Assembly: GCA_030526175.1 (NCBI GenBank)
Contig: JAUNDJ010000003.1
Span: forward strand, 1-59,301
Length of the DNA stretch: 59,301 nucleotides
DNA from: Bacillota bacterium
GTDB taxonomy: Bacteria > Bacillota_I > Bacilli_A > Erysipelotrichales > Erysipelotrichaceae
Reading direction: 5' to 3'
The notes under the pieces were generated by a model. It did not search any database and was not told the origin of the DNA. It saw only the letters and a program-made list of their open reading frames with translations. The position numbers and the translations under genes were made by a program. Below are positions 22,738-54,724 of the stretch, piece after piece (the first letter of the stretch is position 1; each line of letters starts with the position of its first letter).

Positions 22738-22773
22738 AAGAATCCTTTTGTGCTATACTCGTAATAATAGAAT

Positions 22774-22952
22774 GTCTTCGAGTCTTATTTCCTAAGGAAT
22801 CTCTATGGAAATAAGACCGGAATCTTTGGATTCAAGGGCTAATGGAGAAATCGATTAACCTTCCGTGTTTGAAAAGAGGACTATATGTTTTAATGCACAA
22901 CCTTTTTTAGTTGTGGTTTTAATCGTATATAGTGCCTTGGTGGCACTTTTTT
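22774..22952 (+). promoter_or_regulatory. Structured leader RNA with terminator/antiterminator, putative riboswitch
   Basis: P1 pairs GUCUUC (22774-22779) with GAGGAC (22876-22881). Inside it are P2, a perfect 11-bp stem (22782-22792 with 22807-22817), P3 GAATC/GATTC (22820-22824, 22829-22833), and P4 (22834-22843 with 22854-22862, with internal mismatches). ACTATAT (22880-22886), which overlaps the P1 3' strand, is complementary to ATATAGT (22927-22933), which overlaps the 5' arm of the terminator at 22931-22952. So stable P1 would permit termination and open P1 would permit read-through. A further hairpin CACAAC/GTTGTG lies at 22896-22915. I do not recognise the consensus of a known riboswitch class. 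Confidence 0.65.
22931..22952 (+). terminator. Leader terminator before the ECF S-component gene
   Basis: AGTGCC (22931-22936), loop TTGGT, GGCACT (22942-22947), T-run to 22952, ending 18 bases before the ATG. Its location upstream of the gene means it controls entry into the operon. Confidence 0.8.
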
Positions 22953-36986: not shown

Positions 36987-37043
36987 AATTTATTTTTTTA
37001 CAATAAATGCATAGTGAAATACTAGGAAATGTTAGGAGGAAGT

Positions 37044-38274: not shown

Positions 38275-38302
38275 TATGTATATTTACAAGGAGAATGATA
38301 GT

Positions 38303-39454
38303 ATGAGCACAAAAATAGAAACACGATGTATTCATTTGGAAAATGACCAAGACCACCCATATGGAGCGATTAGTTATCCGATTTTTCAAACGGCGACTTA
38401 TGCCCACCCTGGAGTCGGTCAAAGTACGGGTTTTGATTATTCAAGACACAAAAATCCAACACGCGATCATTTAGAAAAAATTGTTGCTTCTTTAGAAAAT
38501 GGAACGGAAGCTTTTGCGTATAGTAGTGGTATGTCCGCTATTGCAACCGTGATGGAATTGTTTGTTCCAGGCGATCACCTAATTGTAGAAGAAGATTTAT
38601 ATGGAGGAAGCATTCGCTTATTTGATCACGTAAATAAGAAAAATGGGATTTCTTTTTCCAATGTAGATGTTGCCAATGAAGATGTGGAATTGTATTTTCA
38701 AGAAAACACAAAAGCGATATTTATTGAAACACCTACAAACCCAATGATGCATATTGTTGATATTGAAAAAATGGCAGAGATTGCTCATGCACACTCGGCA
38801 TTATTAATTGTTGATAATACCTTTTTATCACCTTACCTTCAAAATCCTTTGGATTTCGGTGCAGATATTGTTATCCATAGTGGAACAAAGTATCTAAGTG
38901 GTCATAACGATACACTATCTGGATTTGTGATTGTCAAAGATGAAGAATTGGCGGAAAAGATTGGTTTCATCAGCAAGACAACAGGCCCTATGATTTCTCC
39001 TTTTGATGCGTGGTTAGTTACACGTGGGATTCAAACTTTATCCGTTCGTATGCGTGTTGCTCAAGAAAACGCTTGGACAATCGCAAACTGGTTATTGGAA
39101 CAAGATGTGATTGAAAATGTCTTTTATCCAGGCTTAGAAACACATCCTGGACACGACCTTATGAAAAAACAAGCACGTGGATTTGGCGCTATGTTGTCTT
39201 TTCATGTAAAGACGCAAAAAATAGCGCATGGTATCTTGGAAAATATCCAACTTATTCAATATGCGGAAAGCTTAGGGGGAACCGAATCCTTGTTGACATA
39301 TCCGCTAACACAAACCCATGCGGATGTTTCAAAAGAATTAAGAGATAAAAATGGGGTAACAGAAACACTATTAAGGATGTCTGTTGGTTTAGAAAATGTG
39401 GAAGATATCATTCTAGATCTGAAACAGGCAATTGAAAAAGCTAAGGAGAATTAG
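38303..39454 (+). CDS. Cystathionine gamma-synthase/beta-lyase family PLP enzyme
   Basis: A 383 aa Cys/Met-metabolism PLP enzyme. The substrate-entry Tyr lies in GFDYSRHKNPTR, the PLP-stacking block in YSSGMSAIATVM, the Asp in VDNTFLSPYLQNP, and the PLP lysine in HSGTKYLSGHND. It performs trans-sulfuration: cystathionine formation, cleavage, or direct O-acetylhomoserine sulfhydrylation; sequence alone does not separate these. AGGAG precedes ATG 38303. The LysR gene starts 1 bp after its stop, so they share a transcript. Confidence 0.9.
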   Translation: MSTKIETRCIHLENDQDHPYGAISYPIFQTATYAHPGVGQSTGFDYSRHKNPTRDHLEKIVASLENGTEAFAYSSGMSAIATVMELFVPGDHLIVEEDLYGGSIRLFDHVNKKNGISFSNVDVANEDVELYFQENTKAIFIETPTNPMMHIVDIEKMAEIAHAHSALLIVDNTFLSPYLQNPLDFGADIVIHSGTKYLSGHNDTLSGFVIVKDEELAEKIGFISKTTGPMISPFDAWLVTRGIQTLSVRMRVAQENAWTIANWLLEQDVIENVFYPGLETHPGHDLMKKQARGFGAMLSFHVKTQKIAHGILENIQLIQYAESLGGTESLLTYPLTQTHADVSKELRDKNGVTETLLRMSVGLENVEDIILDLKQAIEKAKEN

Positions 39455-39455
39455 A

Positions 39456-40367
39456 ATGACACTGACTCAATTAAAATACGCTGTTGTGATATCACAAAGT
39501 GCTTCCATGAATGAAGCAGCAAGAAAACTATTTATTTCCCAACCCAGTCTTTCTTTGTCCATTAAAGAATTGGAAGAGGAAGTTGGAATGGAAATATTTA
39601 TCCGTTCCAATCGAGGAATCTCACTAACTCAAGAAGGGGAAGAATTTATTGGATATGCCAAACAGATGGTCGAACAGTATGATTTAATGGAGTCACGTTT
39701 TATTTTGAAAAAAGAAGCAAAGAAAAAATTCTGTGTTTCTATGCAACATTATTCTTTTGCGGTATCTGCTTTTGTGGAAACGGTAAAAAAATTTGGAATG
39801 GATGAATTTGAATTTGCGATTCGTGAAACGAGAACAGCGGAAGTGATTGAGGATGTGAAAAATTTCCGTAGTGAAATTGGTATCTTGTATCTAAATGCGT
39901 TTAATCAAGAAAGTTTGAAAAAACTATTGTATAAAGATGGTTTAGAATTCCAGGAATTGTTGCAATGTTATGTGTATGTATATATGGCCAAAAGTCATCC
40001 TTTGGCTCATAAAGAAACTCTTACATTACAAGATCTTGAACAATATCCTTGTTTGTCTTTTGAACAAGGAAAAGACAATTCGTTCTATTTTGCCGAAGAA
40101 GTGTTGAGTACGTATGAATATAAACGATTGATTAAAGGAAATGACCGAGCTACGATGTTAAATCTAATGGTGGGATTAAATGGATATACGTTGTGCTCAG
40201 GTATTATTTCGGAAGAATTAAATGGTCCTGAATATTGTGCAATTCGTTTAAAACCGGATGAAAAAATGAGAATTGGATATATTGTACGAAAAGGAATGAA
40301 TATTTCAGAAATAGGGAAACAATATATCGATGAATTGTTGAAATATAAGAAATATGCGATTGAATAG
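39456..40367 (+). CDS. LysR-family transcriptional regulator
   Basis: A 303 aa regulator with an N-terminal winged helix (MTLTQLKYAVVISQ, then AARKLFISQPSLSLSIKELEEEVG, abridged) and a two-lobed effector domain from about 90. AAGGAG precedes ATG 39456. It is encoded between the trans-sulfuration enzyme and the GHR genes, and a shared inverted-repeat motif lies at the promoters of both units. It is therefore the natural candidate to control sulfur and thiol genes in response to a precursor such as O-acetylserine. Confidence 0.9.
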   Translation: MTLTQLKYAVVISQSASMNEAARKLFISQPSLSLSIKELEEEVGMEIFIRSNRGISLTQEGEEFIGYAKQMVEQYDLMESRFILKKEAKKKFCVSMQHYSFAVSAFVETVKKFGMDEFEFAIRETRTAEVIEDVKNFRSEIGILYLNAFNQESLKKLLYKDGLEFQELLQCYVYVYMAKSHPLAHKETLTLQDLEQYPCLSFEQGKDNSFYFAEEVLSTYEYKRLIKGNDRATMLNLMVGLNGYTLCSGIISEELNGPEYCAIRLKPDEKMRIGYIVRKGMNISEIGKQYIDELLKYKKYAIE

Positions 40368-40379
40368 AAGAGGAAAGAT

Positions 40380-41522
40380 ATGAGTTTAGTCAATAATAAG
40401 CGTTTAACACAAACCTTTTTAGATTTAGTATCGATCGATTGTGAATCGTATCAGGAAAAGGAAATGGCAACTTTTCTTAAAGAAAAACTGGATGCACTAC
40501 AAATCCCTTATTTTGAAGATAATGCTTCCGAGTTTCTAAAAGGAGAAAACAGCGCCAATAATTTGTATTGTGTTCTAAAAGGGAATTTATCGGAAAAAGA
40601 AAATATGGAAAAAGCCATCTTATTTTCTTCGCATATGGATACGGTAAAACCTGGAATTGGAAAAAAGGCCATCGTGCATGCGGATGGGAAAATCACGAGT
40701 GATGGCACTACGGTATTAGGTGCGGATGATGGTGCAGGACTAGCAGAAATCTTAGAAATGTTGACCATCTTAATTGAAAATAATTTACCCCATCCAGACA
40801 TTGAAATCTTATTTGCGAGTGCCGAAGAACCATATTGTCAAGGAAGTCGGTATGTCGATTATTCGAAGTTTCATGCCAAAAAAGCGTATGTACTGGATTT
40901 GAGTGGAGAAATTGGAAGAGCAGCCAATGCCGCTCCTTCCATCTATTCTTTGTATATTAAAGTAAAAGGAAAAAGTAGCCATGCCGGTTTTGCGCCAGAA
41001 CAAGGTGTGCATGCTCTTTATATTGCTTCCAAAGCCATTGCTTCTTTACCATATGGAAGCGTGGAAGAAGGAACAACGATAAATATTGGAACTGTCCAAG
41101 GGGGCAGGGGAAAGAATATCGTTCCCGATGAGGTATCTCTTTCTGGAGAAGTTCGAAGTATGTTCAAGGAAAAAGCCGAGTATTGGATCGAACAAATGAA
41201 ACAAACGTTTGAAAAACAAGCAAAATTACTGAATGGAACTGTTGAATTTGTCGTAGAAAAGGAATTTGATGCCTATTTTGTGGATGAACAAGAAGAAGTG
41301 AGTCAATTGTTTAAATTGGCTTGTGAAAATCTAGGATTAAAATCGACATTACTACAAACCTTTGGTGGTTCCGACAACAACAATATCAATCCTCATGGCA
41401 TTAAAGGTCTTGTTCTTGCCAATGCGATGAATGAAGTGCATTCTGTTCGCGAATGGACGAGTATACAAGATATGTCTCTTTGTGTAGACATTTTACTACA
41501 AATCATAAAATTATCGTGTTAA
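40380..41522 (+). CDS. M20-family metallopeptidase, PepT-like
   Basis: A 380 aa zinc-dependent aminoacylase or tripeptidase-type enzyme. The first metal motif is FSSHMDTVKPG, the bridging Asp lies in LGADDGAGLAEI, the catalytic Glu pair in FASAEEPYCQGS, and the final His in NEVHSVREW. The lid domain with GKSSHAGFAPEQG sits in the middle. No signal peptide. It starts 12 bp after the LysR gene. Peptide substrates could include Cys-containing di- or tripeptides, given the context, but that is inference. Confidence 0.87.
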   Translation: MSLVNNKRLTQTFLDLVSIDCESYQEKEMATFLKEKLDALQIPYFEDNASEFLKGENSANNLYCVLKGNLSEKENMEKAILFSSHMDTVKPGIGKKAIVHADGKITSDGTTVLGADDGAGLAEILEMLTILIENNLPHPDIEILFASAEEPYCQGSRYVDYSKFHAKKAYVLDLSGEIGRAANAAPSIYSLYIKVKGKSSHAGFAPEQGVHALYIASKAIASLPYGSVEEGTTINIGTVQGGRGKNIVPDEVSLSGEVRSMFKEKAEYWIEQMKQTFEKQAKLLNGTVEFVVEKEFDAYFVDEQEEVSQLFKLACENLGLKSTLLQTFGGSDNNNINPHGIKGLVLANAMNEVHSVREWTSIQDMSLCVDILLQIIKLSC

Positions 41523-41555
41523 TAAGCATTCGCTATAGCGGGTGCTTATTTTTAT
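41521..41555 (+). terminator. Terminator of the lyase-LysR-peptidase operon
   Basis: AATAAGCA (from 41521) pairs with TGCTTATT (ending near 41550), with an inner CGC-TATA-GCG stem, followed by a short T-run. Confidence 0.75.
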
Positions 41556-41589: not shown

Positions 41590-41615
41590 AAGTGCATTCA
41601 TATAGGAGGTTTATT

Positions 41616-42578
41616 ATGATTTCGTATTCAGAAGATAGAAATGAAATAAAAGCGAACGGTTCTTTTGTTCGCCAAAATAATTATTTTACAACACCATTTG
41701 GAAAAGGGGAAAACGATTTACCTGTAGAAGCAAATCGATATCGTTTGATTTGGACACCACTTTGTCCTTGGGCAACTCGTCAAGTGATTGCTTTTAAGCT
41801 ATTAGGTTTGGAAGATGTCATCAGCATTGGAAAAGTGAATCCTGTTCGTACAGATAAGGGATGGGAATTCTCATTGGATGAAGGAGGCGTGGATCCTGTT
41901 TTAAAAATACGTTACTTACCAGAAATCTATGCCAGTACAGCTCCTGAATATACAGGAAGAGCCACTGTACCAACGATTGTGGATGTAAAAACGAGAAAAG
42001 TAGTAAATAACGATTATCACAAGCTTACCAATTATTGGGAAGTGGAATGGAAAGAATTTCATAAAGAAGGCGCACCGGATTTATATCCAGAAGCACTTCG
42101 TGACCAGATTGATGAGTTAAATGATATTTTATTCCATGAAATCAACAATGGAGTTTATAAAACAGGTTTTGCGAAAACGCAAGAGCAATATGAATTAAAT
42201 TACAACTTGGTGTTTGATCGTCTAGATTGGTTAGAAAAACGTTTGGAAAACAATCGTTTTCTTTTCGGAGATTATATTACCGATTCGGATATTCGTTTGT
42301 ATGTAACACTTGCTCGTTTTGATACAGCGTATTACTTCGGATTCAATACGAATAAGAAAAGAATTCGTGACTACGATAATTTATGGAACTATGCCAAAGA
42401 GTTATATAGTATTCCGGCTTTTCAGGAAGCAACGGATTTTGAAGCCATCAAAAGAGGGTATCTATCCGCCAATAACCCATATAATATCTTCCCATTAGGA
42501 CCAGACAATAGTGTTTGGTTAGAACCGAACAATCGAGAAGAGAAGTTTGGTCCGATTCAATTTGATTATGGAAAGTAG
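41616..42578 (+). CDS. Glutathionyl-hydroquinone reductase-like protein 1 (Xi-class GST)
   Basis: A 320 aa protein of the GHR family (YqjG/ECM4-like), which in other organisms reductively removes glutathione from glutathionyl-hydroquinones. The N-terminal thioredoxin-like domain carries the catalytic Cys50 in PLCPWATR; RATVPTIVD is the cis-Pro turn; the helical domain has NNGVYKTGFAKTQEQY and FLFGDYITDSDIRLYVTLARFD. TAGGAGG precedes ATG 41616. It is the first of a three-gene run and one of five paralogues in the window. The real thiol partner in this Gram-positive host is unknown. Confidence 0.9.
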   Translation: MISYSEDRNEIKANGSFVRQNNYFTTPFGKGENDLPVEANRYRLIWTPLCPWATRQVIAFKLLGLEDVISIGKVNPVRTDKGWEFSLDEGGVDPVLKIRYLPEIYASTAPEYTGRATVPTIVDVKTRKVVNNDYHKLTNYWEVEWKEFHKEGAPDLYPEALRDQIDELNDILFHEINNGVYKTGFAKTQEQYELNYNLVFDRLDWLEKRLENNRFLFGDYITDSDIRLYVTLARFDTAYYFGFNTNKKRIRDYDNLWNYAKELYSIPAFQEATDFEAIKRGYLSANNPYNIFPLGPDNSVWLEPNNREEKFGPIQFDYGK

Positions 42579-42589
42579 AGGATGAAACA

Positions 42590-43555
42590 ATGTCAAGTAA
42601 TATTATGGAAAATAAAGAAAAAGAATTTAATAAAGACGGAAAGTTTATTCGTCAAAAGAATCGTTTTACGACACCTTTTGGGAAAGGAGAAAACGATTTA
42701 CCCGTGGAAGCGAATCGTTATCGTTTAATTTGGGCACCTGTTTGTCCTTGGGCACATCGTTCGATTATTGTTCGTTCTCTATTAGGATTGGAAGATGTCA
42801 TTAGTTTGGGTACTTTGGATCCGATTCGTCCGAATACGGAAAAAACAGATTGGGCATTTACTTTGGATCCTGAGAATGTGGATCCTGTTTTGCTGATTCA
42901 TTATTTAAGTGAAGCATATTTGCGTACGGATCCTGACTATCAAGGAAGACCGACGGTTCCTGCTGTCGTAGATTTAAAAACGGGAAAAGTTGTAAATAAT
43001 GATTATTTTAATTTGACTCGGTACTGGGAAGTGGAATGGAAAGAATTTCATAAAGAAGGCGCACCGGATTTGTATCCAGAAGAGTTGCGTGACCAAATTG
43101 ATGAACTAAATGATATTTTATTCCACGAAATCAACAATGGCGTTTATAAAGCAGGTTTTGCCAAAAGTCAAGAAGCGTATAACGATGCAGTAATCACATT
43201 CTTTAAGCGTATGGATTGGTTAGAAGAAAGATTGGAACATTCTCGATATTTGTTTGGTGATCAAATTACGGAATCGGATGTTCGTTTATATGTCACATTA
43301 GCGCGTTTTGACATTGCGTATTTTAATGGATTCCGTGTGAATCTGAAAATGTTGAAAGATTATCCAAATCTTTGGGCTTATGCACGAGACTTATATTCCA
43401 TTCCAGCTTTTGGACAAACAACAAACTTTGATGCGATTAAGAAACATTATCACTTATGTTGTTTAGCCACAAATCCTAAGAAAATCCTTCCTTTAGGACC
43501 AGAGGAAAACTTATGGTTACTTCCTCATAATCGAGATAAACGAGAGTATAAATAA
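42590..43555 (+). CDS. Glutathionyl-hydroquinone reductase-like protein 2
   Basis: A 321 aa paralogue closely similar to the preceding gene, 11 bp downstream. Cys52 lies in the canonical CPWAHR motif; RPTVPAVVD gives the cis-Pro loop; the helical domain has NNGVYKAGFAKSQEAY. Of the five copies it keeps the most classical GHR active site. Tandem duplication with the neighbour is the simplest origin. Confidence 0.9.
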   Translation: MSSNIMENKEKEFNKDGKFIRQKNRFTTPFGKGENDLPVEANRYRLIWAPVCPWAHRSIIVRSLLGLEDVISLGTLDPIRPNTEKTDWAFTLDPENVDPVLLIHYLSEAYLRTDPDYQGRPTVPAVVDLKTGKVVNNDYFNLTRYWEVEWKEFHKEGAPDLYPEELRDQIDELNDILFHEINNGVYKAGFAKSQEAYNDAVITFFKRMDWLEERLEHSRYLFGDQITESDVRLYVTLARFDIAYFNGFRVNLKMLKDYPNLWAYARDLYSIPAFGQTTNFDAIKKHYHLCCLATNPKKILPLGPEENLWLLPHNRDKREYK

Positions 43556-43566
43556 GGAGTCTAACT

Positions 43567-45007
43567 ATGTCATATGTAAAACCGTTTCAAAGCATTGCTC
43601 TTTTTGAGAATACTTTCAAACATCAAATTAAGAAAAAAACAGGAAAAGTGGAAGAGCGAAGCTTTGTGTTTAATAAAAAGTTTGGCAAGGATCTGCTTGT
43701 AGAAGCGAATCGATATCGTTTAATTTGGATGCCAGGTTGTCCGCATTCGAATAAAGCGGTTATTGTGTTGCGTTTATTGGGATTGGATCGTGTCATTAGT
43801 GTAGGTGAAGCTGGAATACTTAGAGATCCAAGAGGATGGGTCTTTTCAGAAGATTTAGGAGAAGTGGATCCTGTATTAAAAATACATTATTTAGACGATG
43901 CATATTTAAAAGGGGATCCCAATTTTGTGGGAAGATCTACGGTGCCAGCCATTATAGATATTGAAAGTGGTAAAACGGTGCAAAATGAAGCATGGGATAT
44001 TCCTAAGTATTTAATTACCGATTGGAAAGCTTACCAAAAGGAAAAGGCTCCGGATCTCTATCCAGAAGCTTTAAGAGAAGAAATTGATCAAGAAGTTGAA
44101 AATATTAAGCGTGTCAATGCGTACGCTTGTGGGTTTGCGCGTTCTCAAGAACAATACGATCAGGGGTTTGAAGAATATTTTAATGTATTGGATGAATATG
44201 AAGAAAAACTTGCGAATCGTCGTTTTCTTCATGGTGATTTTATTACTTTGTCGGATATTCATCTTTATGTGGCTTTGATTCGTTTTCATATCAATTACCA
44301 TTTGGTGTTTGGTGTGAATAAGAAGCGTTTGGAAGAGTATCCTAACCTTTGGGGATATACTCGTGATTTGTATCAAACAGAGGCGTTCTATGAATATACA
44401 AAACTGGAACAAATTAAGAAGCATTATCAATTATCGCCGCATATGCGTGCCAAATTAGGAAATGTATATGGTCTTGTCGGTACGGGACCGGATAATCGTG
44501 ATTTATTAAAGCCTACTGGAAGAGAAACGCTTTCTTTACATCCAGAAGAAAAGTTTGTTTATAGTATTGAAACTAGGGAGGAATTTAAACACGATACGAT
44601 CGAACACGAAATTGAATATCTTCAAAAATATGTCATCGAACCGATTGAAAAGGCTGGACAAGCTACGTTCCAAACGGATTTGGAGCGTTGGTCTTTCCAA
44701 ATCCAGGATGCGTTTAAAAATATAAATAAGAGATTGGAAAATAGTGAATATTTACTTGGTAATCAATGGAATGAAGCGGATGCATTGTTGTATAAGACAC
44801 TTCTTCGTTTTGATCATATTTATTATTATGTATATAAATTGAATTTTGCGAAAAGCAGCGATTTTGATCATTTAAAAAATTATATCCTTCGTTTTAAAAG
44901 ACAAAATTCCTTTTGATGTAGAAAAGGAAAAGGAAGAATTTTATAAAAATTTGGATGATGATTTCAATCCGTATCATATCGTATTTACAGGACCGACACC
45001 ATTGTAA
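43567..45007 (+). pseudogene. Glutathionyl-hydroquinone reductase-like protein 3, divergent, C-terminal frameshift
   Basis: Reads 449 aa to a stop at 44916. An extra A in the tract 44896-44899 shifts the end; with three A it would continue KDKIPFDVEKEKEEFYKN and finish at 45007 with HIVFTGPTPL, giving 479 aa and a GHR-like tail. The active site is changed to CPHSNK (Cys58). An additional helical segment of about 130 residues beyond normal GHR length (from about 325), which repeats GHR-like helical features (QDAFKNINKRLENSEYLLGNQWNEADALLYKTLLRFDH, abridged), suggests a partial duplication of the C-terminal domain. Function may be retained or lost. Confidence 0.75.
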
Positions 45008-45052
45008 TGTCGTTTCATGATTGAAGATTGAACTGGAGAGGGGAACTATCCT

Positions 45053-46240
45053 ATGAATGTAATTTTTATATCACCAAACTATCCGAGACATTTTTATCAG
45101 TTTTGTGAAAGATTAAAAGTAAGAGGTGTAAATGTATTAGGAATTGGAGATCAGCCTTGGGAAGAACTTTCAGATCCATGTAAGCATGCAATATCGGATT
45201 ATCGGTATGTTTCTAGCCTTTCTGATTATGATGCAGTGTATCGTACAGTTGCATCTTTTATTGCGAAATATGGTCGAATAGATTATATTGAGAGTCAGAA
45301 TGAATATTGGTTAGAGACCGATGCGAGAATTCGTACCGATTTCAATATTTGTTCCGGGCCAAAGCTAGATGCTTTGCGCTTAATGAACCGTAAGTCTGAA
45401 ATGAAAAAAGTATATGAGCGTGCAGGGATTCCTGTTGCTAGATGGTTGCTTCCTGACAATTTGGAAGAAGCCGTTGCATTCGCAAAGGATGTTGGTTATC
45501 CAATTATTATGAAACCGGACCACGGAATGGGTGCGAGTGATACCCATAAAATTCATAATGAAAAAGAGCTAGTTTCATTCTGGTCGAGCAAAGTAGTAGA
45601 CGTGATCTATATTGAGGAAGAATGTGTTCCTGGTCACGTAGAAACCTTTGATGGTATTACCGATAGTCATCGTGAGGTATTGTTTGCTGCTAGTCAGGTT
45701 CTGCCAAAGAGTTTAATGGATGCTGCACATGGAGATGATATCGTATCTTATTGCCAACAGGTACCTAAGGATCTATATCAGATGGGTGCACGCTTATTGA
45801 AAGAGTATGATACAAGAAACCGATTTTTCCATTTTGAGTTCTTCTGTTTGGATGAAGATAAGGAAGGTTTAGGAAAAGTAGGGGATATTGTTGGCTTGGA
45901 AGTTAATATGAGAGCACCAGGCGGACGTATTCCGGATAAGATGAATTATGCCTTTAACACAGATGTCTATACGATATGGGCAGATAGTTTGATTCATGAT
46001 AAGTGTTTTATAAATCATCAGTTCAAATATTATATTACCCACATTGGTAGAAGACATGCGATTTCTTATTTACATTCCGATGAAGAGATTCTAAAGGAAA
46101 TGGATGGACAGATTATTGAAGATTTTGAAGTGGATAAAGTTCTAGCTTTGAATATGGGTGATCATGCATTCTTATTGCGTGCAGATTCCAAAAAAGCTTG
46201 GGAACATCAGATGAATTATGTATTGGAGAGAAATAAATGA
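45053..46240 (+). CDS. ATP-grasp carboxylate-amine/thiol ligase
   Basis: A 395 aa ATP-grasp enzyme of the carbamoyl-phosphate-synthase-like type. A Rossmann-like pre-domain (VIFISPNYPRHFYQF) precedes the ATP-binding lobe with YPIIMKPDHGMGASDTH and the metal site in GLEVNMRAPGG. It would join a carboxylate to an amine via an acyl phosphate. It is first in a four-gene cassette and overlaps the esterase by 4 bp (ATGA). Gln codons are 9 CAG to 1 CAA by my count, the reverse of the flanking GHR genes. The substrate is unknown; it is not a recognisable GshB. Confidence 0.83.
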   Translation: MNVIFISPNYPRHFYQFCERLKVRGVNVLGIGDQPWEELSDPCKHAISDYRYVSSLSDYDAVYRTVASFIAKYGRIDYIESQNEYWLETDARIRTDFNICSGPKLDALRLMNRKSEMKKVYERAGIPVARWLLPDNLEEAVAFAKDVGYPIIMKPDHGMGASDTHKIHNEKELVSFWSSKVVDVIYIEEECVPGHVETFDGITDSHREVLFAASQVLPKSLMDAAHGDDIVSYCQQVPKDLYQMGARLLKEYDTRNRFFHFEFFCLDEDKEGLGKVGDIVGLEVNMRAPGGRIPDKMNYAFNTDVYTIWADSLIHDKCFINHQFKYYITHIGRRHAISYLHSDEEILKEMDGQIIEDFEVDKVLALNMGDHAFLLRADSKKAWEHQMNYVLERNK

Positions 46241-46977
46241 GAAGAGAATTCATAACACAATTTAGTCAATATCTAAAACGCGATATGCATATGTTGGTTT
46301 ATGGAGAAAGAGGTGTTCCAGTTATCGCCTTTCCTTGTCAGGATGGTATGTGTGATAACTGGGAAAGCTTTCAGATGCCAGAGGAACTATCAGGATACAT
46401 TAACGCTGGACAGATGCAGTTATTTTGTGTAGATACGATTGATAAAGAGAGCTGGTCAGATAAGGGTGGAAACAAGGAGCATCGTGCCTGGATGCAAGAA
46501 ATGTACTATCGTTATGTGGTCGAAGAATTAGTTGCGTTGGTAAAAGATATCAATAGAACTGGCAATCTTCCATTGGTGATGGGGTATAGTCTAGGTGCCG
46601 TGCATGCGGCAATCGCATTTTTTAGAAGACCTGATTTGTTCCGCGGAGTTCTTGCTTGTAGTGGATGTTATCACGCACCTTATTTTTTCGATGGTTGGTG
46701 TAATTCTGTCTTATATGATAATTCGACTTTAGATTTTCTTAAAAATATGCCTTTAAACCATCCATACATTAACCTATATAACCAGAAAAAAATAGTTCTA
46801 TGCGTTGGTCAAGGACGTTGGGAAGGTAGATGTTTACCAACGACCAAAGAGATGAAAGAAATTTTTGCGCAAAAAGGAATTCATGGCTGGGTCGATCTTT
46901 GGGGCTATGATGTAGACCATGACTGGCCTTGGTGGAAAAAACAAACGCATTATCACATTCGTGATTTATTGGCATAG
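46237..46977 (+). CDS. Alpha/beta-hydrolase esterase (esterase D/Fes-like)
   Basis: A 246 aa cytoplasmic serine hydrolase. The nucleophile elbow is GYSLGAVHA, with the acid and His late in the protein (YDVDHDWPWW). The sequence fits the putative esterase family (PF00756), whose members include S-formylglutathione hydrolase; thioester or ester hydrolysis of a thiol conjugate would fit the cassette. It overlaps the ATP-grasp gene by 4 bp and precedes the ligase by a short gap. Confidence 0.83.
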   Translation: MRREFITQFSQYLKRDMHMLVYGERGVPVIAFPCQDGMCDNWESFQMPEELSGYINAGQMQLFCVDTIDKESWSDKGGNKEHRAWMQEMYYRYVVEELVALVKDINRTGNLPLVMGYSLGAVHAAIAFFRRPDLFRGVLACSGCYHAPYFFDGWCNSVLYDNSTLDFLKNMPLNHPYINLYNQKKIVLCVGQGRWEGRCLPTTKEMKEIFAQKGIHGWVDLWGYDVDHDWPWWKKQTHYHIRDLLA

Positions 46978-46994
46978 TAAGAGGAGGGATGTTT

Positions 46995-48272
46995 GTGTTT
47001 CATGTTGAGGATGACAAGATTAAGGCACTAATTTTAAAGGGGAATTTTGGTTTGGAGAAGGAGAGCCTTCGGATTACACAGGACGGATACATGGCACATA
47101 CGGGACATCCTTTTGTAGGGGATAAACATATTGTTCGTGATTTTTCGGAGAATCAGATTGAAATTAATACATCTGTGGAATCTACTGCGGAGGATGCCGT
47201 CGCAAGTTTATATCGGTATACGGTGAAGATTCAGAAAAAACTTGCGGAAAATGGCGAATTGTTATGGCCTTTTTCCTCACCACCTTATATTCGAAATGAG
47301 AATGATATTCCTATCGCATTTTTTGAGGAACCTTATTCTTCCCAAGTAAAATACCGAGAGTATTTATCGGATCGATATGGAAGATACAAGATGAGCTTTT
47401 CTGGAATTCATGTAAATTATTCGTTTTCGGATGAATTGCTGGAGGCGGATTTTGCGTTGAGTTCATATTCTGATTTTCAGAAATATAAAAATGATTTGTA
47501 TCTGGTTCTTGCGGAACGTGCAGCTTCTTATAGCTGGATTCTGACTGCGGTTACGGCTGCCAGTCCGTATTTGGATAGCTCTTTTGTAGAAAAAGGAGTA
47601 TATGGGAAGAATTCCTTTAATGGAATGGCATCGACTCGTTGTAGCGAATTGGGATATTGGAATTACTTTACACCAATTTTTGATTATTCGAGTCTAGAAG
47701 CTTATTGTGATAAGATTGAATGGTTTGTGAAGCAGGAGCTGATTGTTTCGCCTAGTGAATTGTATTATCCAGTTCGAATTAAACCGAAAGGGGTAAATAG
47801 CCTGGAACGTTTGAAACACGATGGGGTGGATCATATTGAATTGCGTATGTTTGACCTAAATCCTTTATGTAAGGAGGGAATCGATATTCGTGATTTGAAA
47901 TTTGCTCAGTTGCTTCTAGTGTATCTAGCTAGTTCTCCTAGACAAACATACGAGCAAAAGGATCAGGTCAATTCATCACAGAACTTTAAAAATGCAGCTC
48001 ATTACGATTTGCAGACAGTGAAGATTTCGATTCCTGATAATACTGCATTGTCTGTAGTGGATGCAGGTCGGGAAGTAATTGGATTTCTAAGAGAATTCTA
48101 CCAGGGATTCCCTCAGGAGATTCAGGATATTCTGGATTACGAAGAGGCTAAATTTATTAATCCAGAGTTGCGTTATGCATGGCAGGTTCGAAAGCTGTAT
48201 TCGGATGGATTTGTTTCCGGCGGTCTTGAACTTGCGAAGAAATATCAGGAGATGGCAATAAAAGATGTGTGA
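46995..48272 (+). CDS. gshA: Glutamate-cysteine ligase
   Basis: About 425 aa, matching the ligase domain that forms gamma-glutamylcysteine. FGLEKESLRI near residue 20 is the family signature; MSFSGIHVNYSF, STRCSELGYWNYF and HIELRMFDLNP (metal and substrate sites) follow. It lacks the ATP-grasp half of bifunctional GshAB. GTG 46995 is preferred because GGAGG lies 7 bases upstream, whereas ATG 46989 is only 1 base away. It overlaps the amidotransferase by 8 bp. Gln codons are 14 CAG to 3 CAA by my count, unlike the neighbours outside the cassette. Confidence 0.9.
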   Translation: MFHVEDDKIKALILKGNFGLEKESLRITQDGYMAHTGHPFVGDKHIVRDFSENQIEINTSVESTAEDAVASLYRYTVKIQKKLAENGELLWPFSSPPYIRNENDIPIAFFEEPYSSQVKYREYLSDRYGRYKMSFSGIHVNYSFSDELLEADFALSSYSDFQKYKNDLYLVLAERAASYSWILTAVTAASPYLDSSFVEKGVYGKNSFNGMASTRCSELGYWNYFTPIFDYSSLEAYCDKIEWFVKQELIVSPSELYYPVRIKPKGVNSLERLKHDGVDHIELRMFDLNPLCKEGIDIRDLKFAQLLLVYLASSPRQTYEQKDQVNSSQNFKNAAHYDLQTVKISIPDNTALSVVDAGREVIGFLREFYQGFPQEIQDILDYEEAKFINPELRYAWQVRKLYSDGFVSGGLELAKKYQEMAIKDV

Positions 48273-49029
48273 ATTATTTGGTGTGAACTCTAAAAATAAA
48301 GTTACAATTAATGATTATTTGAAGACTTTTATGTCTCATAGCACGAAGCATCCCAATGGGTGGGGTATTGCTCAGTTTTGGGGAACTATTGTGAATTTGG
48401 AAAAGGAACCCAAGGCAGCGATTAATAGTGACTATTTGAGCAGTAGACTGGAAGAAACAATTGAAACAGAGAATCTGATTGCGCATATTCGTTTGGCGAC
48501 ACGTGGAAAGATGACATATAATAATTGTCATCCTTTTGTGAAGCGTGATCGTAGTGGCAGGGCGTGGACTTTGGCGCACAACGGTACGATTTTTAAATCC
48601 GAGATTTTGGATACTTATAAAGAAATCGAAAAAGGTGGAACGGACAGTGAACGAATTCTGTGTCATGTCATTCATGAGATGGATAAGAAAATCGAGGAGC
48701 TGGGAAGAGATTTATCAAGTGAGGAGCGCCTGATAATTATGGATGCCTTGATCCAAGAGATTACGGAATCGAATAAAGTGAATCTTTTGATTTATGATGG
48801 TGAGCTTTTGTATGTACATACGAATATGAAGGGGACGCTTTATTATAAGCGTGAGAAGGATACGGTTTATTTTGCGACTGTTCCGTTGGATCAAGACCTG
48901 TGGGAGCCAGTTCCTATGATGCAGCTGTTGGCATTTCGAGAGGGAAAACAGATCTTTATAGGTAAAGAGCATGCTTATGAGTATTTCCAAGAAGATTTTA
49001 CACCAATATACGATTGGGCAAATTTATAG
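48265..49029 (+). CDS. Class II glutamine amidotransferase, YafJ/EgtC type
   Basis: A 254 aa N-terminal-nucleophile hydrolase with Cys2 (MCELFG) as catalytic residue, HIRLATRG and TLAHNGTI forming the glutamine site. It has no synthase domain, like YafJ and EgtC. EgtC removes a gamma-glutamyl group in ergothioneine synthesis after EgtA (a glutamate-cysteine ligase homologue) has supplied the thiol donor. Here it overlaps a glutamate-cysteine ligase gene, so removal of gamma-glutamate from a ligated thiol product is a reasonable inference. EgtB and EgtD are absent. A terminator follows. Confidence 0.88.
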   Translation: MCELFGVNSKNKVTINDYLKTFMSHSTKHPNGWGIAQFWGTIVNLEKEPKAAINSDYLSSRLEETIETENLIAHIRLATRGKMTYNNCHPFVKRDRSGRAWTLAHNGTIFKSEILDTYKEIEKGGTDSERILCHVIHEMDKKIEELGRDLSSEERLIIMDALIQEITESNKVNLLIYDGELLYVHTNMKGTLYYKREKDTVYFATVPLDQDLWEPVPMMQLLAFREGKQIFIGKEHAYEYFQEDFTPIYDWANL

Positions 49030-49034
49030 TAATT

Positions 49035-49069
49035 AAGGTAAGACTGTTAAATAGAGTCTTGCCTTTTTT
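49035..49069 (+). terminator. Terminator of the thiol cassette
   Basis: AAGGTAAGACT (49035-49045), 9-base loop, AGTCTTGCCTT (49055-49065, one G-T pair), then a T-run. Confidence 0.88.
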
Positions 49070-49164
49070 CATACTTTTTTTCTATATCGAGTTCTAGGAT
49101 ATACGTATTTTTCAAAAGAAAGGAAAAAGAATAGAATTTGGGACAAGAACAAGGAGATGAGTAT

Positions 49165-50148
49165 ATGACAACAATTAACTATAAAGGATCCGTAAAGAAT
49201 GAAATTTCTAAAAGCGGAGAATTTAAAAGACAGAAAAATTTATTTACTACACCTTTTGGAGATCAAGAAGGAGATCTTCCAGTTGTAAAGGGAAGATATA
49301 AGCTATATTGGGCCAAAGGATGCCACTGGTCGAATCGGGCTTCGATTGTTCGTGAACTATTAGGGTTAGAAGATGTATTGGATGTACAGATTGTCGGAAG
49401 TGAAAAGCTAAATGGAACAAACGCATGGACGGTGAATGATAAAGAAAGTGGTTATACGTATTTGTATGAGTATTATGAAGCGGCAAAACCTGGTTTTGAA
49501 GGAAGAGCGACCGTACCTGTAGTAGTGGATCAAATTGAGAAAAAGGCGGTAAACAATGACTATCACCATTTGACAAATTATTTTGAAACCGAGTTTAAGC
49601 CGTATTTTAAAGAAGATGCTCCGGATTTGTATCCAGAAGAGCTTCGTGAAGAAATTGATGCGTTGAATGCCTGGTTATTTCCAAATATCAACAATGGAAC
49701 GTATCGTATGATGTTTGCGAAATCGTTGGAAGCGTATGAAAAAGCGTATAAGGACTTTTTTGAAGGATTGGATTATTTAGAAGAACGTTTGGAACATCAG
49801 AGATTTTTATTTGGGGATTATGTTACGGATAGTGATATTCGTTTGTTTGTGACCTTGGTTCGTTTTGAAGTGGCGTATTATCGTTTCTTAGGTCCTTTAG
49901 AAAAAGGTTTAAGAGGATATAAGAACTTGTGGGAATATACTCGAGATTTATATGTCATTCCAGCTTTTCGTAATAACACATATCTAGCGGATATTGCGCA
50001 TGAATATGGGGCACTGGATGAATCGAATACGAATTTCCAATCGTATAACTATCGTTTCTGGAATGAAGTGGATTATGACAAAGTTTTTTCGGCACCACAA
50101 AATCGTAGAGTGTTATCGAAAAATCCGGATTCAAAATTTAAGTTATAG
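49165..50148 (+). CDS. Glutathionyl-hydroquinone reductase-like protein 4
   Basis: A 327 aa GHR paralogue. The active site reads GCHWSNRAS with Cys53, so the classical Cys-Pro-Trp-Ala is replaced by Cys-His-Trp-Ser. RATVPVVVD and FLFGDYVTDSDIRLFVTLVRF (abridged) are conserved. GGAGATG precedes ATG 49165. It follows the thiol cassette terminator and has a possible own promoter (TAGAAT near 49132). It forms a subgroup with protein 5. Confidence 0.9.
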   Translation: MTTINYKGSVKNEISKSGEFKRQKNLFTTPFGDQEGDLPVVKGRYKLYWAKGCHWSNRASIVRELLGLEDVLDVQIVGSEKLNGTNAWTVNDKESGYTYLYEYYEAAKPGFEGRATVPVVVDQIEKKAVNNDYHHLTNYFETEFKPYFKEDAPDLYPEELREEIDALNAWLFPNINNGTYRMMFAKSLEAYEKAYKDFFEGLDYLEERLEHQRFLFGDYVTDSDIRLFVTLVRFEVAYYRFLGPLEKGLRGYKNLWEYTRDLYVIPAFRNNTYLADIAHEYGALDESNTNFQSYNYRFWNEVDYDKVFSAPQNRRVLSKNPDSKFKL

Positions 50149-50276
50149 GAAGAACTTATAACATGTATTAGGTTTTATATATTATACAAACGAGTTGCAA
50201 GTGCTTATACTAGTGTCATGGTTAATCACCTAAAAACCTAGTAGAAAAGTAGGATATGATATATAGGAGGTAAAAT

Positions 50277-51359
50277 ATGGCAGATTTAAAAAAATCCATT
50301 TGGACGGATGAACAAGTGGAAATTGATGCAAAAGAAAGAGGGGTTAAGCCTAGACCGAAAGAAACGAAATCGGAAATTGATGAAAGAGGTGCCTTTATTC
50401 GTCAACCCAATCGTTTCGCCACTCCATTTGGAGATCAAGAAGGGCAATTAAAAGCGGAAAAAGGAAGATATCGTTTGTTCTGGGCCAAAGGCTGTCACTG
50501 GTCCAATCGTGCTTCCATTGTTCGTGAATTATTAGGATTGGAAGATGTCATTAGCGCACAAATCGTAACACATACGGGAGAAACAAATGTATATGGTTGG
50601 GGATTTGCGAACCAAGAAAATCATGAAGATCCTGTTACGAAAGCAAAATTCTTAAGCGAATTCTATTTCAATGCCGATCCGGATTACGATGGAAGAGCAA
50701 CGGTTCCTTCTCTAGTAGATATTACCACAAATAAAATTGTAAACAACGATTATCATCGTCTAACAAACTACTTAGAAGTAAATTTTGCTCCTTGGCAACC
50801 TGAGGATGCACCGGATTTATATCCTGAAAAATTAAGAAAAGAAATTGACTTGTTTAATGACTGGTTATTTCCAAACATCAACAACGCGCATTATCGAATG
50901 GCATTTTGTCAATCTTTAGTGGCTTATAACGAAGCGTATGATGATTTCTTTAATGCGATGGATAAGTTGGAAGAACGATTGGAAAATCAACGTTTCTTAT
51001 TTGGGGATTATGTAACCGATAGCGATGTTCGTTTCTTTGTGACATTGGCTCGTTGGGATTCTTATTACTACAAAAATTTAGGTCCTCAAAAGAAACGTAT
51101 GATGGAATACAAAAACATTTGGGCATATGCAAGAGATTTATATGAAATCCCAGCTTTTAAAAACAATACATATTTCAAAGATTTCTCGAAAGTTCCAAAA
51201 AACCAAACAATTTTTAATTCATTTAATGCAAGATTTGCCGATCAAATCGATTATGAAGCATTGTGGTCTCAACCACAAACAAGACGATTCTTAAGTCGTA
51301 CACCAGATGAAAAATTTTTAAGAAGAAACAATAAGGAGAAAAGATCATGGAAAAAATAA
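50277..51359 (+). CDS. Glutathionyl-hydroquinone reductase-like protein 5
   Basis: A 360 aa GHR paralogue with an N-terminal extension of about 20 residues (SIWTDEQVEIDAKERG) and the CHWS active site at Cys73. RATVPSLVD and FLFGDYVTDSDVRFFVTLARWD (abridged) are conserved. TAGGAGG precedes the ATG; TATACT at 50206 may be the -10. The basic C-terminal tail runs into the next gene's start, and its stop lies in the same A-tract that is damaged there, so the exact end is uncertain. Confidence 0.88.
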   Translation: MADLKKSIWTDEQVEIDAKERGVKPRPKETKSEIDERGAFIRQPNRFATPFGDQEGQLKAEKGRYRLFWAKGCHWSNRASIVRELLGLEDVISAQIVTHTGETNVYGWGFANQENHEDPVTKAKFLSEFYFNADPDYDGRATVPSLVDITTNKIVNNDYHRLTNYLEVNFAPWQPEDAPDLYPEKLRKEIDLFNDWLFPNINNAHYRMAFCQSLVAYNEAYDDFFNAMDKLEERLENQRFLFGDYVTDSDVRFFVTLARWDSYYYKNLGPQKKRMMEYKNIWAYARDLYEIPAFKNNTYFKDFSKVPKNQTIFNSFNARFADQIDYEALWSQPQTRRFLSRTPDEKFLRRNNKEKRSWKK

Positions 51360-52206
51360 ATTATTAAAATCATTATTAGCCTTTGGCGTAGCTGCTTCTA
51401 CTTTAGTTGGATGTGGAGCAAAAAGTGAACAACCAAAGGAAGCGGAACCTCAAAAAACAGTTATTAAAGCAGCAACTAGTGGTTCTACTAACCCTTATAC
51501 AACAATTGGAGATGATGGTCAAAATACAGGATACGATATTGAAGTTTTAAAAGCGGTATTTGAAGAATTACCACAATACGAATTGGAATTTGTCACAACG
51601 GATTTTGGTTCTATTTTTGAAGGAACATTAAGTGGATCTTATGACATTGCGGTGAATAACTTCTCGTATAATGCAAAACGTGCTGAAAGTTATTTATTTA
51701 GCTATCCATACGATGAAATTTCTTATGTCTTTGTAACGAAAAAAGGTGGAAAAGAAATTAAATCGTTTAAAGAAGCGGCTGGAAAAACATATCGTGGAGG
51801 AGCTGGAGTTTCTATCACAACAGCTATTGAAAAATGGAACGAGGATCATCCAGAAGAAGCAATTAATTTAGAATATACAGAACAAGATACAGCTGTTGAT
51901 CTTCAACAAGTAGCCGATGGGGCTGTCGATTTCGCCATCATCGACTTAGCAATGTTTGTAGCTTATCAAAATGAGTACAATTTTGATATTCAAATGACAC
52001 CATTGAGCGAAGAAGATACAAGAGCGATTGCAGAAAACAATTATGCATATTACTTATTCGCTTACGATCACGATGGATTACGTCAAGAAGTAAACACTGT
52101 ATTAAAGAAATTCCAAGAGGATGGTACATTAACAAAAATTAGTAAAGAATGGTTTGGACAAGATACAGCACCAGATGCTTCTCAATTTGAAAAAACATTA
52201 AATTAA
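51347..52206 (+). pseudogene. Amino-acid (cystine-type) ABC substrate-binding lipoprotein, frameshifted at its start
   Basis: The ATG at 51347 behind AAGGAG opens a frame that stops after six codons. Adding one A to the A6 tract 51351-51356 gives MEKNKLLKSLLAFGVAASTL (abridged), a lipoprotein signal with lipobox LVGC, continuing in the long frame to 52206 (286 aa). The mature part is an amino-acid-binding fold of the family-3 type: TGYDIEVLKAVFEEL, DIAVNNFSYNAKRAESYLFSYPY (abridged) and DFAIIDLAMF. It precedes the permease and ATPase genes. A sequencing error in the A-tract is the simplest explanation; otherwise the transporter has lost its receptor. Confidence 0.85.
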
Positions 52207-52214
52207 CATTTATA

Positions 52215-52260
52215 GGGTACGTTCGTACCCTCTCATTTTAAGTAACCAGTTTACTGGTTA
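52215..52260 (+). terminator. Two tandem hairpins between binding protein and permease genes
   Basis: GGGTACG-TT-CGTACCC (52215-52230) is followed by TCTCATTTT, then TAACCAGT-TT-ACTGGTTA (52243-52260) directly before the ribosome site of the permease. They may attenuate or stabilise mRNA so that the binding protein is made in excess. Confidence 0.6.
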
Positions 52261-52274
52261 GGAAAGGAATCATT

Positions 52275-53012
52275 ATGAGTAAGATATTTGACTTAGGTTT
52301 AGTATTTTCACAAATTCCACAAATTCTGGAGTACTTACCAGTAACACTGGAATTAGCGATTATATCGTATGCGGTAAGTTTAGTATTTGGATTAATTATC
52401 GCTTTAATAAAAATAAATAAAACCCCTGTATTTACACAGATTGCCAATGTGTTTATTTCTGTAATTCGTGGAACACCAATCATTGTCCAACTTTATGTGG
52501 TATATTTTGGAATTCCTCTGATCCTAAAAGCAATCAATTTAAAACTAGGAACGAATTTAAATGTGAATGGAATCCCTTCTATTATTTATGCTTTTGTCGC
52601 TTTGGCTATTAACGAATCTGCTTTTAATGCCGAAATCATTCGTGGGGCTCTCTCTTCTGTTAAAGAAGGACAAATCGAAGCTGGACATGCCTTAGGTATG
52701 TCTACTTGGCAAGTGTTATATCGAATTGTCATTCCAGAAGCTTTAGTGGTTGCCTTTCCTTCATTAATCAATTCTTTTATTGGTTTGATTAAAGGAACTT
52801 CTTTAGCCTTTACTTGTTCTGTAGTGGAAATGACAGCGCAAGCAAAAATTCTTGGTGGAAGAAACTTCCGTTATTTTGAAGCGTATTGCTCATTGGCTAT
52901 TATCTATTGGTTGATTACGGTAATTTTGGAACAAATTGCCAAACGTGTGGAACAAAAAATGGCCATTCCGGACGATGCACCGGAAATTAAGAAAATCGAA
53001 GAGAGGGCTTAA
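52275..53012 (+). CDS. Polar amino-acid/cystine ABC permease
   Basis: A 245 aa inner-membrane permease of the His/Glu/Gln/Arg family. The YLPVTLELAIISYAVSLVFGL helix (abridged), the VIRGTPIIVQL motif near residue 75 and the EAA loop (EAGHALGMSTWQVLYRIVIPEA, abridged) that contacts the ATPase are clear. GGAAAGG precedes the ATG. It is coupled to the ATPase gene by a 2-bp gap. The position before cysteine synthase and among thiol genes favours cystine, as in TcyB-type systems. Confidence 0.9.
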   Translation: MSKIFDLGLVFSQIPQILEYLPVTLELAIISYAVSLVFGLIIALIKINKTPVFTQIANVFISVIRGTPIIVQLYVVYFGIPLILKAINLKLGTNLNVNGIPSIIYAFVALAINESAFNAEIIRGALSSVKEGQIEAGHALGMSTWQVLYRIVIPEALVVAFPSLINSFIGLIKGTSLAFTCSVVEMTAQAKILGGRNFRYFEAYCSLAIIYWLITVILEQIAKRVEQKMAIPDDAPEIKKIEERA

Positions 53013-53014
53013 TT

Positions 53015-53779
53015 ATGACGATTCAATTAAAAAATATCTCTAAAAAGTTTAAAAACAACGTTGTTTTGGATGGCATTGATCTTTCGATTGAAAAAGGGGA
53101 TGTGATTGGTATTATTGGTCCTTCGGGAACAGGAAAATCGACTCTACTTCGTTCAATCAATCGTTTGGTTCACCCAGAAGGTGGTTCAATTGTTTTGAGT
53201 AATGGAAAAGAAATAGATTTGGTCAATGCCAAAGGAGATGACCTTTTGGAGTTAAGACAATCTACGGGAATGGTTTTTCAAAGCTTTAACTTATTTGAAC
53301 GAAAGAGTGCTTTGGAAAATGTCATGGAAGGTTTATTGGTTGTAAAGAAAATGAATAAAGAAGAGGCGAAAAAAATTGCCTTAAAACGTCTACAAGATGT
53401 AGGACTACTGGATTGGCAAAATCATTATCCAAAACATATGTCGGGTGGACAACAACAACGTGTAGCCATTGCCAGAGCGTTGGCAATGGAACCAGAACTT
53501 CTTTTATTGGACGAACCGACTTCGGCTTTGGATCCTGAATTTGTTGGAGAAGTATTGGATATTATTAAGAAAGCAGCCAACGAAGGAGTCACAATGATTC
53601 TTGTTTCGCATGAAATGAATTTTATTAAGAATGTGGCAAACAAAGTGATTTTCTTAGATGGTGGAAAGATTTTGGAAGAAGGAGATCCAAAAGAAGTCTT
53701 TAATAATCCAAAACATGAGCGTGTACGAGAATTCTTTGTGAAGATGAATCGTTTGGAAAGTCCAGAATATTATTTATAG
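53015..53779 (+). CDS. Polar amino-acid/cystine ABC ATPase
   Basis: A 254 aa cytoplasmic ATPase driving the adjacent permease. Walker A is GPSGTGKST near residue 37, the Q-loop is VFQSFNLFE, the signature is MSGGQQQRVA and Walker B is LLLLDEPTSALD, with the switch His in LVSHEMNF. Fully intact. Cysteine synthase starts 12 bp after its stop, so transport and assimilation share a transcript. Confidence 0.94.
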   Translation: MTIQLKNISKKFKNNVVLDGIDLSIEKGDVIGIIGPSGTGKSTLLRSINRLVHPEGGSIVLSNGKEIDLVNAKGDDLLELRQSTGMVFQSFNLFERKSALENVMEGLLVVKKMNKEEAKKIALKRLQDVGLLDWQNHYPKHMSGGQQQRVAIARALAMEPELLLLDEPTSALDPEFVGEVLDIIKKAANEGVTMILVSHEMNFIKNVANKVIFLDGGKILEEGDPKEVFNNPKHERVREFFVKMNRLESPEYYL

Positions 53780-53791
53780 GAGAACACGAGT

Positions 53792-54724
53792 ATGGCAAAA
53801 GTATATGATAGTATTCTTGAATTAATTGGGCATACCCCACTAGTTCGTCTTCATCGGATTGAAGAACAAGAAAATATAGAAGCACATTTGATTGCCAAAT
53901 TGGAAAGCTTTAATCCGGGTTCGAGTATAAAAGATCGAATTGCCTTGAATATGATTGAGGCAGCCGAAAGAGAAGGAAAACTTCTTCCTGGGGGAACGAT
54001 CATTGAAGGAACTTCGGGTAATACGGGTATTGGAATTGCGATGGTGGGAGCTGCCAAAGGGTATAAAACCATCATTTGTATGCCTGAAAACATGTCGCAT
54101 GAGCGTGTACAAATCTTACAAGGTTATGGAGCTGAAGTGTATTTAACACCGGCTGCCTTGAATATGGCTGGGGCTGGTAAACAATCCGCGGAGCTTCAAG
54201 CCCAAATTTCGAATTCGATTGTTTTGGGACAAGGAATGAATCCAAACAATCCCAATGCCCACTTTAATAGCACGGGTCCAGAGATTTGGGAGGATTTGGA
54301 TGGACAAGTAGATATTGTGGTTGCGGCTGTAGGAACGGGTGGAACACTGACGGGTGTTGGTGAATTCTTGCGTTCCAAAAATCCAAATGTTGAATTGATT
54401 GGGGTAGAACCAGCGGGTTGTCCTGTCCTTTCTGGAGGAGAACCGGGTCCTCATAAGATTCAGGGAATTGGAGGGGGCATGATTGCTCCTGTGACAAAAT
54501 TGGAATTGTTTAATGAAATCATTACAATAACGGATGATGATGCTTATGAAACGTCTCGTTATAGTGCCTTACAAGAAGGAATTTCCATTGGGATTTCGAG
54601 TGGTGCAGCACTTAGTGCAGCTATTCAAGTCGCAAAGCGTGAAGAGAATAAGGGCAAAAATATCGTTGTTATTTTTGCCGATAGTGGAGAGCGTTATTTA
54701 TCGAGTGGGTTGTATGGAGAATAG
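53792..54724 (+). CDS. cysK: Cysteine synthase (O-acetylserine sulfhydrylase)
   Basis: A 310 aa fold-type II PLP enzyme converting O-acetylserine and sulfide to cysteine. The PLP lysine is Lys47 in NPGSSIKDR, the substrate loop is EGTSGNTGIG and the phosphate cup is GTGGTLTGVG; the C-terminal SGAAL segment closes the site. Normal length. AGGAG precedes the ATG. Operon position behind a cystine-type ABC system supports cysteine supply to the thiol pathway. Confidence 0.94.
   Translation: MAKVYDSILELIGHTPLVRLHRIEEQENIEAHLIAKLESFNPGSSIKDRIALNMIEAAEREGKLLPGGTIIEGTSGNTGIGIAMVGAAKGYKTIICMPENMSHERVQILQGYGAEVYLTPAALNMAGAGKQSAELQAQISNSIVLGQGMNPNNPNAHFNSTGPEIWEDLDGQVDIVVAAVGTGGTLTGVGEFLRSKNPNVELIGVEPAGCPVLSGGEPGPHKIQGIGGGMIAPVTKLELFNEIITITDDDAYETSRYSALQEGISIGISSGAALSAAIQVAKREENKGKNIVVIFADSGERYLSSGLYGE

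Follow-up and report, generated by a model that had tools for sequence, protein, structure and literature searches.

Gene content of the cluster

The DNA analysed here (the window) is a 59,301-nt stretch of contig JAUNDJ010000003.1 from a draft Bacillota genome (G000, 90% complete). On its plus strand lie four contiguous genes that may serve to build and trim a protective low-molecular-weight thiol based on cysteine. ATPG (45053-46240, 395 aa) encodes an ATP-grasp carboxylate-amine ligase resembling L-amino-acid ligases, EST (46237-46977, 246 aa) an alpha/beta-hydrolase, GCL (46989-48272, 427 aa) a stand-alone glutamate-cysteine ligase of the GshA/GshF N-terminal type without the GshB part, and GAT (48265-49029, 254 aa) a stand-alone class II glutamine amidotransferase (GATase) domain. 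ATPG and EST overlap by 4 bp, EST and GCL are separated by 11 bp, and GCL and GAT overlap by 8 bp. An intrinsic terminator on the same strand (49035-49069) follows, with an 11-bp stem (49035-49065), a 9-nt loop, a run of six T and a shuffle z of -5.8; a consensus scan missed it because of the 9-nt loop. This arrangement, overlaps, short gap and terminator included, is as an earlier note made from the sequence alone had described it. The consensus scan also gave a terminator-like plus-strand hairpin at 41521-41550, upstream of three genes described below (GHR1-3), and the two terminators may bound a seven-gene unit, GHR1-GHR2-GHR3-ATPG-EST-GCL-GAT. The idea of a contaminant contig finds no support: GC content and tetranucleotide profile agree with other contigs of G000.

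A core pair of glutamate-cysteine ligase and class II amidohydrolase

GCL belongs to PF04262 (Glu_cys_ligase) with 194 bits, against a cut-off of 27. It scores 288 bits with the GshF model (equivalog cut-off 425) and covers only the first 420 of its 756 positions. Its motifs GLEKE, DFSENQ and SGIH-N-S, the ELYYP region and E-x-R-x-x-D-x-NP align with those of E. coli GshA and GshF. The glutamate-cysteine ligase of the earlier note is thus borne out by family score and motifs, as a stand-alone enzyme of the gamma-glutamylcysteine-ligase type, and gamma-Glu-Cys can be securely predicted as its product from family membership. No GCS2-type ligase was found in G000.

GAT matches PF13230 (GATase_4) with 140 bits (cut-off 23) and has no synthase domain. 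It displays the hallmarks of a stand-alone class II amidohydrolase, an N-terminal Cys nucleophile, Arg, Asn-Gly and Asp (Cys2, Arg76, Asn106-Gly107 and Asp127), all of which are kept in eight of eight aligned homologues. The earlier proposal of a class II amidohydrolase therefore stands, as a hydrolase-type domain free of a synthase part. Its description as EgtC-like is apt for the fold and the active site only. Membership of the EgtC equivalog family was rejected, since GAT reaches 61.3 bits with TIGR03442 and the cut-off is 218.65; its nearest solved relative by sequence, nearer than EgtC, is the conserved hypothetical protein 1te5 (E 8e-19).

Are these two genes linked beyond the window? 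In the family of Anaerobutyricum hallii (250 genomes), GCL occurs in 20 genomes and the GATase in 28; 16 carry both, mostly side by side, where 2.24 would be expected (p = 1.8e-14). The window's own family has four genomes in which the two co-occur (p = 0.003).

Recurrence of the four-gene order

A GCL alignment, run against the species genomes of GTDB, found 80 loci. The order ATPG-EST-GCL-GAT, with adjacent genes, recurs in nine public contigs (L071, L073, L075, L076, L080, L087, L107, L132 and L133), which answers positively the question, raised with the first description, of whether the four families occur together elsewhere. L132 and L133 are near-identical, and the nine represent about eight lineages, unrelated bacteria of gut and rumen. 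Their record labels span four phyla and name Lachnospiraceae (Fusicatenibacter), Myxococcales, Proteobacteria/Alphaproteobacteria and a planctomycete, several being unverified labels of metagenome-assembled genomes. About a dozen further loci have ATPG-GCL-GAT without EST, L086 has ATPG-EST-GCL with no adjacent GATase, and the remaining loci are mostly GCL-GAT. Even the window's overlap of 8 bp between GCL and GAT is found again, in L073, L076, L080, L081, L088 and L107. Because both order and overlap recur, chance assembly of the four genes was rejected. We found no paper describing the cluster among open-licence papers.

An ATP-grasp clade tied to glutamate-cysteine ligase

ATPG is a member of the ATP-grasp superfamily (CPSase_L_D2, 27.5 bits, cut-off 19.8). 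Its invariant residues K154, E189-E190, E262, E283, N285 and R287 provide the Lys for catalysis, the Glu and Asn that bind metal and the Arg expected of an L-amino-acid ligase with the ATP-grasp fold. The AlphaFold model has a predicted local distance difference test (pLDDT) score of 91.6, and its best PDB matches are RizA (4wd3, first in Foldseek) and BL00235 (3vot), both with Z of about 29 in VIA-align. As modelled, the fold of ATPG is closest to L-amino-acid ligases. No glutathione synthetase is among the 50 PDB structure matches listed for ATPG, which does not in itself exclude kinship.

In a tree of 68 homologues, 27 of the 31 GCL-linked ATP-grasps fall in one clade of 28 (support 100/99). 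All but one member of this clade adjoin GCL, and the 28th (G115) has GCL directly downstream, cut by the contig end. The clade splits into an 11-member group that bears EST and holds the window, and a 17-member group without EST. Twenty-eight alignment positions are conserved in the 15 aligned clade members and different outside, K296 by the LEVNxR metal loop among them. The GCL-linked ATP-grasps outside the clade (L052, L112, L140 and one of two copies in L133, the second) are ordinary members of the wider family. Only one GCL-positive genome of the A. hallii family has a clade ATP-grasp (at least 50% identity), 2.3 kb from GCL, and for this reason we regard the GCL-GATase pair as the core and the ATP-grasp as the gene that defines a variant. 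An ATP-grasp extension of gamma-Glu-Cys, as first suggested, is likely in the ATPG variant, given the linkage of an entire clade to GCL, and is not universal, since most GCL-GATase pairs are without this ATP-grasp.

EST and an older ATP-grasp-esterase module

EST matches PF00756 with 50 bits, and its GxSxG serine and HDWPWW histidine region are conserved. Its structure has the feruloyl esterase/esterase D fold (template-modelling score about 0.69), a fold that, as matched here, does not tell the substrate. Relatives of ATPG outside the GCL-linked clade occur in 42 of 60 genera of the window's family, and most of those examined are followed by an EST homologue, often with a second PF00756 esterase. 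Such a module of an ATP-grasp and one or two PF00756 esterases, widespread and uncharacterised, is present in most genera of this family (L003-L030, L067). Since the ATP-grasp-EST pair is widespread outside the clade, mostly without GCL or GATase, we consider it an older module that was later joined to GCL-GATase. For the same reason we abandon the idea, put forward in the earlier note, that the esterase is a thiol-specific recycler.

This distribution also bears on the possibility that the GATase feeds glutamine-derived ammonia to ATPG, which would then amidate gamma-Glu-Cys to a product like glutathione amide. Class II GATases often feed synthases, and glutathione amide is a thiol amide known in anaerobic sulfur bacteria (PMC6336425). 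However, the ATP-grasp family, present in 42 of 60 genera compared with 5 of 60 for the GATase, is mostly without a GATase, and the GATase is mostly without this ATP-grasp. As each mostly occurs without the other, neither depends on the other, and we regard ammonia supply as very improbable.

A variant with a GCS2-like ligase

L055, L082, L083, L093 and L130 have a GCS2-like ligase, some 460 aa long, next to GCL and GATase; the copy in L126 is split. Resemblance to plant-type glutamate-cysteine ligase is weak, with scores of 38-42 bits for two of these proteins. Anaerobutyricum hallii DSM 3353 (L098:4454-6910) encodes the GCS2-like ligase and GCL as a single fused frame of 819 aa, and the GATase gene comes next. 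None of the loci with a GCS2-like ligase has the ATP-grasp, which suggests, in small numbers, that the two are alternative second ligases. A large protein beside GCL in L085, L094 and L119 was considered as a non-ribosomal peptide synthetase and rejected: that of L119 is a BspA-type leucine-rich-repeat protein.

Enzymes of glutathione and ergothioneine synthesis

The earlier note had seen no GshB in the window, and this now extends to the G000 assembly as a whole. Of 22 cluster genomes, all of them draft assemblies, 21 (G000 among them) have no PF02955 match (GshB) above the cut-off, and none has a match to PF18419, the ATP-grasp segment of GshF. The exception, G161, has one PF02955 match, in a 305-aa frame. 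With neither enzyme detected, glutathione would require ATPG to use Gly, which is possible; the thiol of the cluster probably comes from enzymes other than the usual ones of glutathione synthesis. No EgtB or EgtD was noticed among the window's open reading frames by reading, the whole genome not having been searched for them.

A candidate thiol pathway

We consider it somewhat probable, judging from gene content and conserved motifs, that the cluster specifies a low-molecular-weight thiol system with gamma-glutamylcysteine at its base. In such a system GCL would join Glu and Cys. ATPG would activate a carboxylate, most likely the Cys carboxylate of gamma-Glu-Cys, and add an amine X. The GATase would then hydrolyse the gamma-glutamyl amide, so that either the product matures to Cys-X, or cysteine or its S-conjugates are released for re-use; the domains of the GATase are in line with an enzyme that takes off gamma-Glu. 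EST, as the weakest step of the scheme, might hydrolyse an ester or thioester of the final product or of the ATP-grasp product.

Several observations weigh against this proposal. Of the 20 GCL-positive genomes in the A. hallii family, 19 are without an ATP-grasp at least 50% identical to the GCL-linked clade, so the extension step is either dispensable or replaced. An EST homologue accompanies most of the non-GCL ATP-grasps examined, and therefore neither gene alone is a thiol gene. If X were Gly, a possible outcome, the product would be ordinary glutathione, and the absences of GshB and GshF are those of draft assemblies, such as that of G000.

Within the proposed gamma-Glu-Cys-based system, we raise as a tentative possibility an undescribed thiol of gut and rumen anaerobes without detectable GshB, either gamma-Glu-Cys-X or Cys-X, where X is not Gly. 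The second ligase would be interchangeable, an ATP-grasp in some lineages and in others a GCS2-like protein, which A. hallii has as a fusion with GCL. Little is known about thiol chemistry in many anaerobic gut bacteria. From the conserved cluster one would predict that a thiol based on gamma-Glu-Cys is made where no GshB is detected, and a variant of the cluster is present in the culturable commensal A. hallii DSM 3353. Our analysis tells the GCL-GATase core apart from interchangeable second ligases and supplies named genes and strains.

Cysteine metabolism in the neighbourhood

The cluster is flanked, on the same strand, by genes of cysteine metabolism. Upstream lie a PatB-family C-S lyase (37029-38210; TIGR04350, 483 bits, cut-off 340), whose relatives recur beside GCL-GAT elsewhere, a recurrent cystathionine gamma-synthase/lyase-type pyridoxal-phosphate enzyme (38297-39454) and a LysR-type regulator (39432-40367), with homologues 50-63% identical beside GCL in several Lachnospiraceae loci. 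Downstream are an ATP-binding cassette (ABC) importer of the cystine/polar-amino-acid type, comprising binding protein, permease and ATPase (51361-53779), and the cysteine synthase CysK (53792-54724; TIGR01139, 388 bits, cut-off 351). Of the 80 loci, 30 have cystathionine enzymes and 23 have PatB relatives no more than 5 kb from GCL; cystine-type ABC genes, CysK and the LysR regulator are also found near GCL among them. The flanking cysteine genes singled out in the first description are therefore no peculiarity of this window, where PatB and CysK pass curated models.

Could gamma-Glu-Cys itself be the thiol and the cysteine reservoir? The GATase would then strip gamma-Glu from gamma-Glu-Cys or S-conjugates of it, and a PatB-type C-S lyase would finish the process, much like an intracellular mercapturate route, with the ATP-grasp and EST as a separate peptide module sharing the operon. 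The GCL-GAT pair without an ATP-grasp in most genomes, the recurrence of PatB, cystathionine enzymes, CysK and cystine-type ABC genes as neighbours, and the older, independent ATP-grasp-EST module are all in keeping with this idea. The ATP-grasp clade, tied to GCL in 28 of 28 members and with conserved residues of its own, argues instead for a shared pathway in the ATPG variant, and we think storage and recycling unlikely.

Other features of the region may be recorded here. At 51361-51583, before its first listed start, the frame of the ABC binding protein stays open and includes a lipobox (LVGC), but no ATG, GTG or TTG. An M20-type peptidase (40380-41522) lies by the GHR/GCL/GATase region; a homologue is near GCL in only one of the 80 loci. 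In two relatives of the window's genus a B3/4-domain protein stands between the cystathionine enzyme and GCL-GATase (L052:2251-2925, PF03483; L053:8223-8897, a homologue by position). We rejected riboswitch control of the four-gene cluster, as Rfam gave no match near it; a molybdenum/tungsten cofactor riboswitch (RF01055, 86.5 bits) lies at 22764-22895.

An array of glutathionyl-hydroquinone-reductase-like genes

Five genes resembling Xi-class glutathione S-transferases/glutathionyl-hydroquinone reductases (GHRs) surround the cluster on the plus strand: GHR1 (41592-42578, CPWA motif), GHR2 (42590-43555, CPWAHR, 65% identical to GHR1) and GHR3 (43567-44916, CPHSNK), spaced 11 bp apart near ATPG, and, beyond the terminator, GHR4 (49138-50148) and GHR5 (50277-51359), both with CHWSNR. 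The GHR3 reading frame ends at 44916, and coding-like sequence in the next frame to about 45007 suggests a 3'-end frameshift near an A-run. The five genes (41592-51359) are mutually 39-65% identical and are the only ones in G000; none was found in the other 145 genomes of the window's family, and the array, a local one, was probably acquired and expanded. In a sample of the phylum three further genomes carry GHRs, two of which (G484 and G572) are without a PF04262 gene. The GHR copies of G484 have as neighbours a cystine-type ABC system, a GNAT, PatB, CysK and cystathionine enzymes. GHRs therefore fit a cysteine context and need no GCL. We rejected them as proof of the cluster's thiol, and with that the earlier suggestion that the flanking GHRs would supply or use it is weakened.

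Could the cluster simply make glutathione by a non-orthologous route? ATPG would replace GshB and add Gly, the GATase would act as a Dug3-like glutathione degrader, and the GHRs would use ordinary glutathione. GCL is GshF-like, and no GshB or GshF C-terminal segment is detected, yet G000 has five GHR-like genes; a yeast class II GATase acts on glutathione, according to the citation of Kaur 2012 in PMC7340319. On the other hand, ATPG is closest to dipeptide ligases and not to GshB, two genomes that have GHR-like genes have no PF04262 gene at all, and most GCL-GAT pairs are without this ATP-grasp. We regard this route as rather unlikely.

Comparison with known thiol systems

How does the proposed gamma-Glu-Cys-based system relate to characterised ones? 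With glutathione synthesis (GshA and GshB, or GshF) it shares the N-terminal family and catalytic motifs of its GCL and the presence of an ATP-grasp ligase in the operon. It differs in having no detected GshB/GshF ATP-grasp, in an ATPG that resembles L-amino-acid ligases, and in a GATase within the operon. The EgtA/EgtC part of ergothioneine synthesis also couples a gamma-Glu-Cys ligase to a stand-alone class II amidohydrolase able to remove gamma-Glu; here, however, GAT falls below the EgtC cut-off and the ligase is of PF04262, not a GCS2-type EgtA. The yeast DUG pathway (Dug2-Dug3) likewise employs a class II GATase to remove gamma-Glu from glutathione, and the M20-type peptidase of the window recalls Dug2, the M20-type partner with which Dug3 forms a complex; but a conserved Dug2-like partner is missing and the cluster GATase is tied to a synthesising ligase. 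We know of no link to GCL for 1te5, the relative of GAT within the GATase_4 family. The L-amino-acid ligases RizA, BacD/YwfE and BL00235 share fold and ATP-grasp catalytic residues with ATPG, which is only 12-20% identical to them and forms a distinct clade tied to GCL-GATase. An L-amino-acid ligase of staphylococci has been reported in sulfur amino acid metabolism, as Pederick 2022 is cited in PMC13338154.

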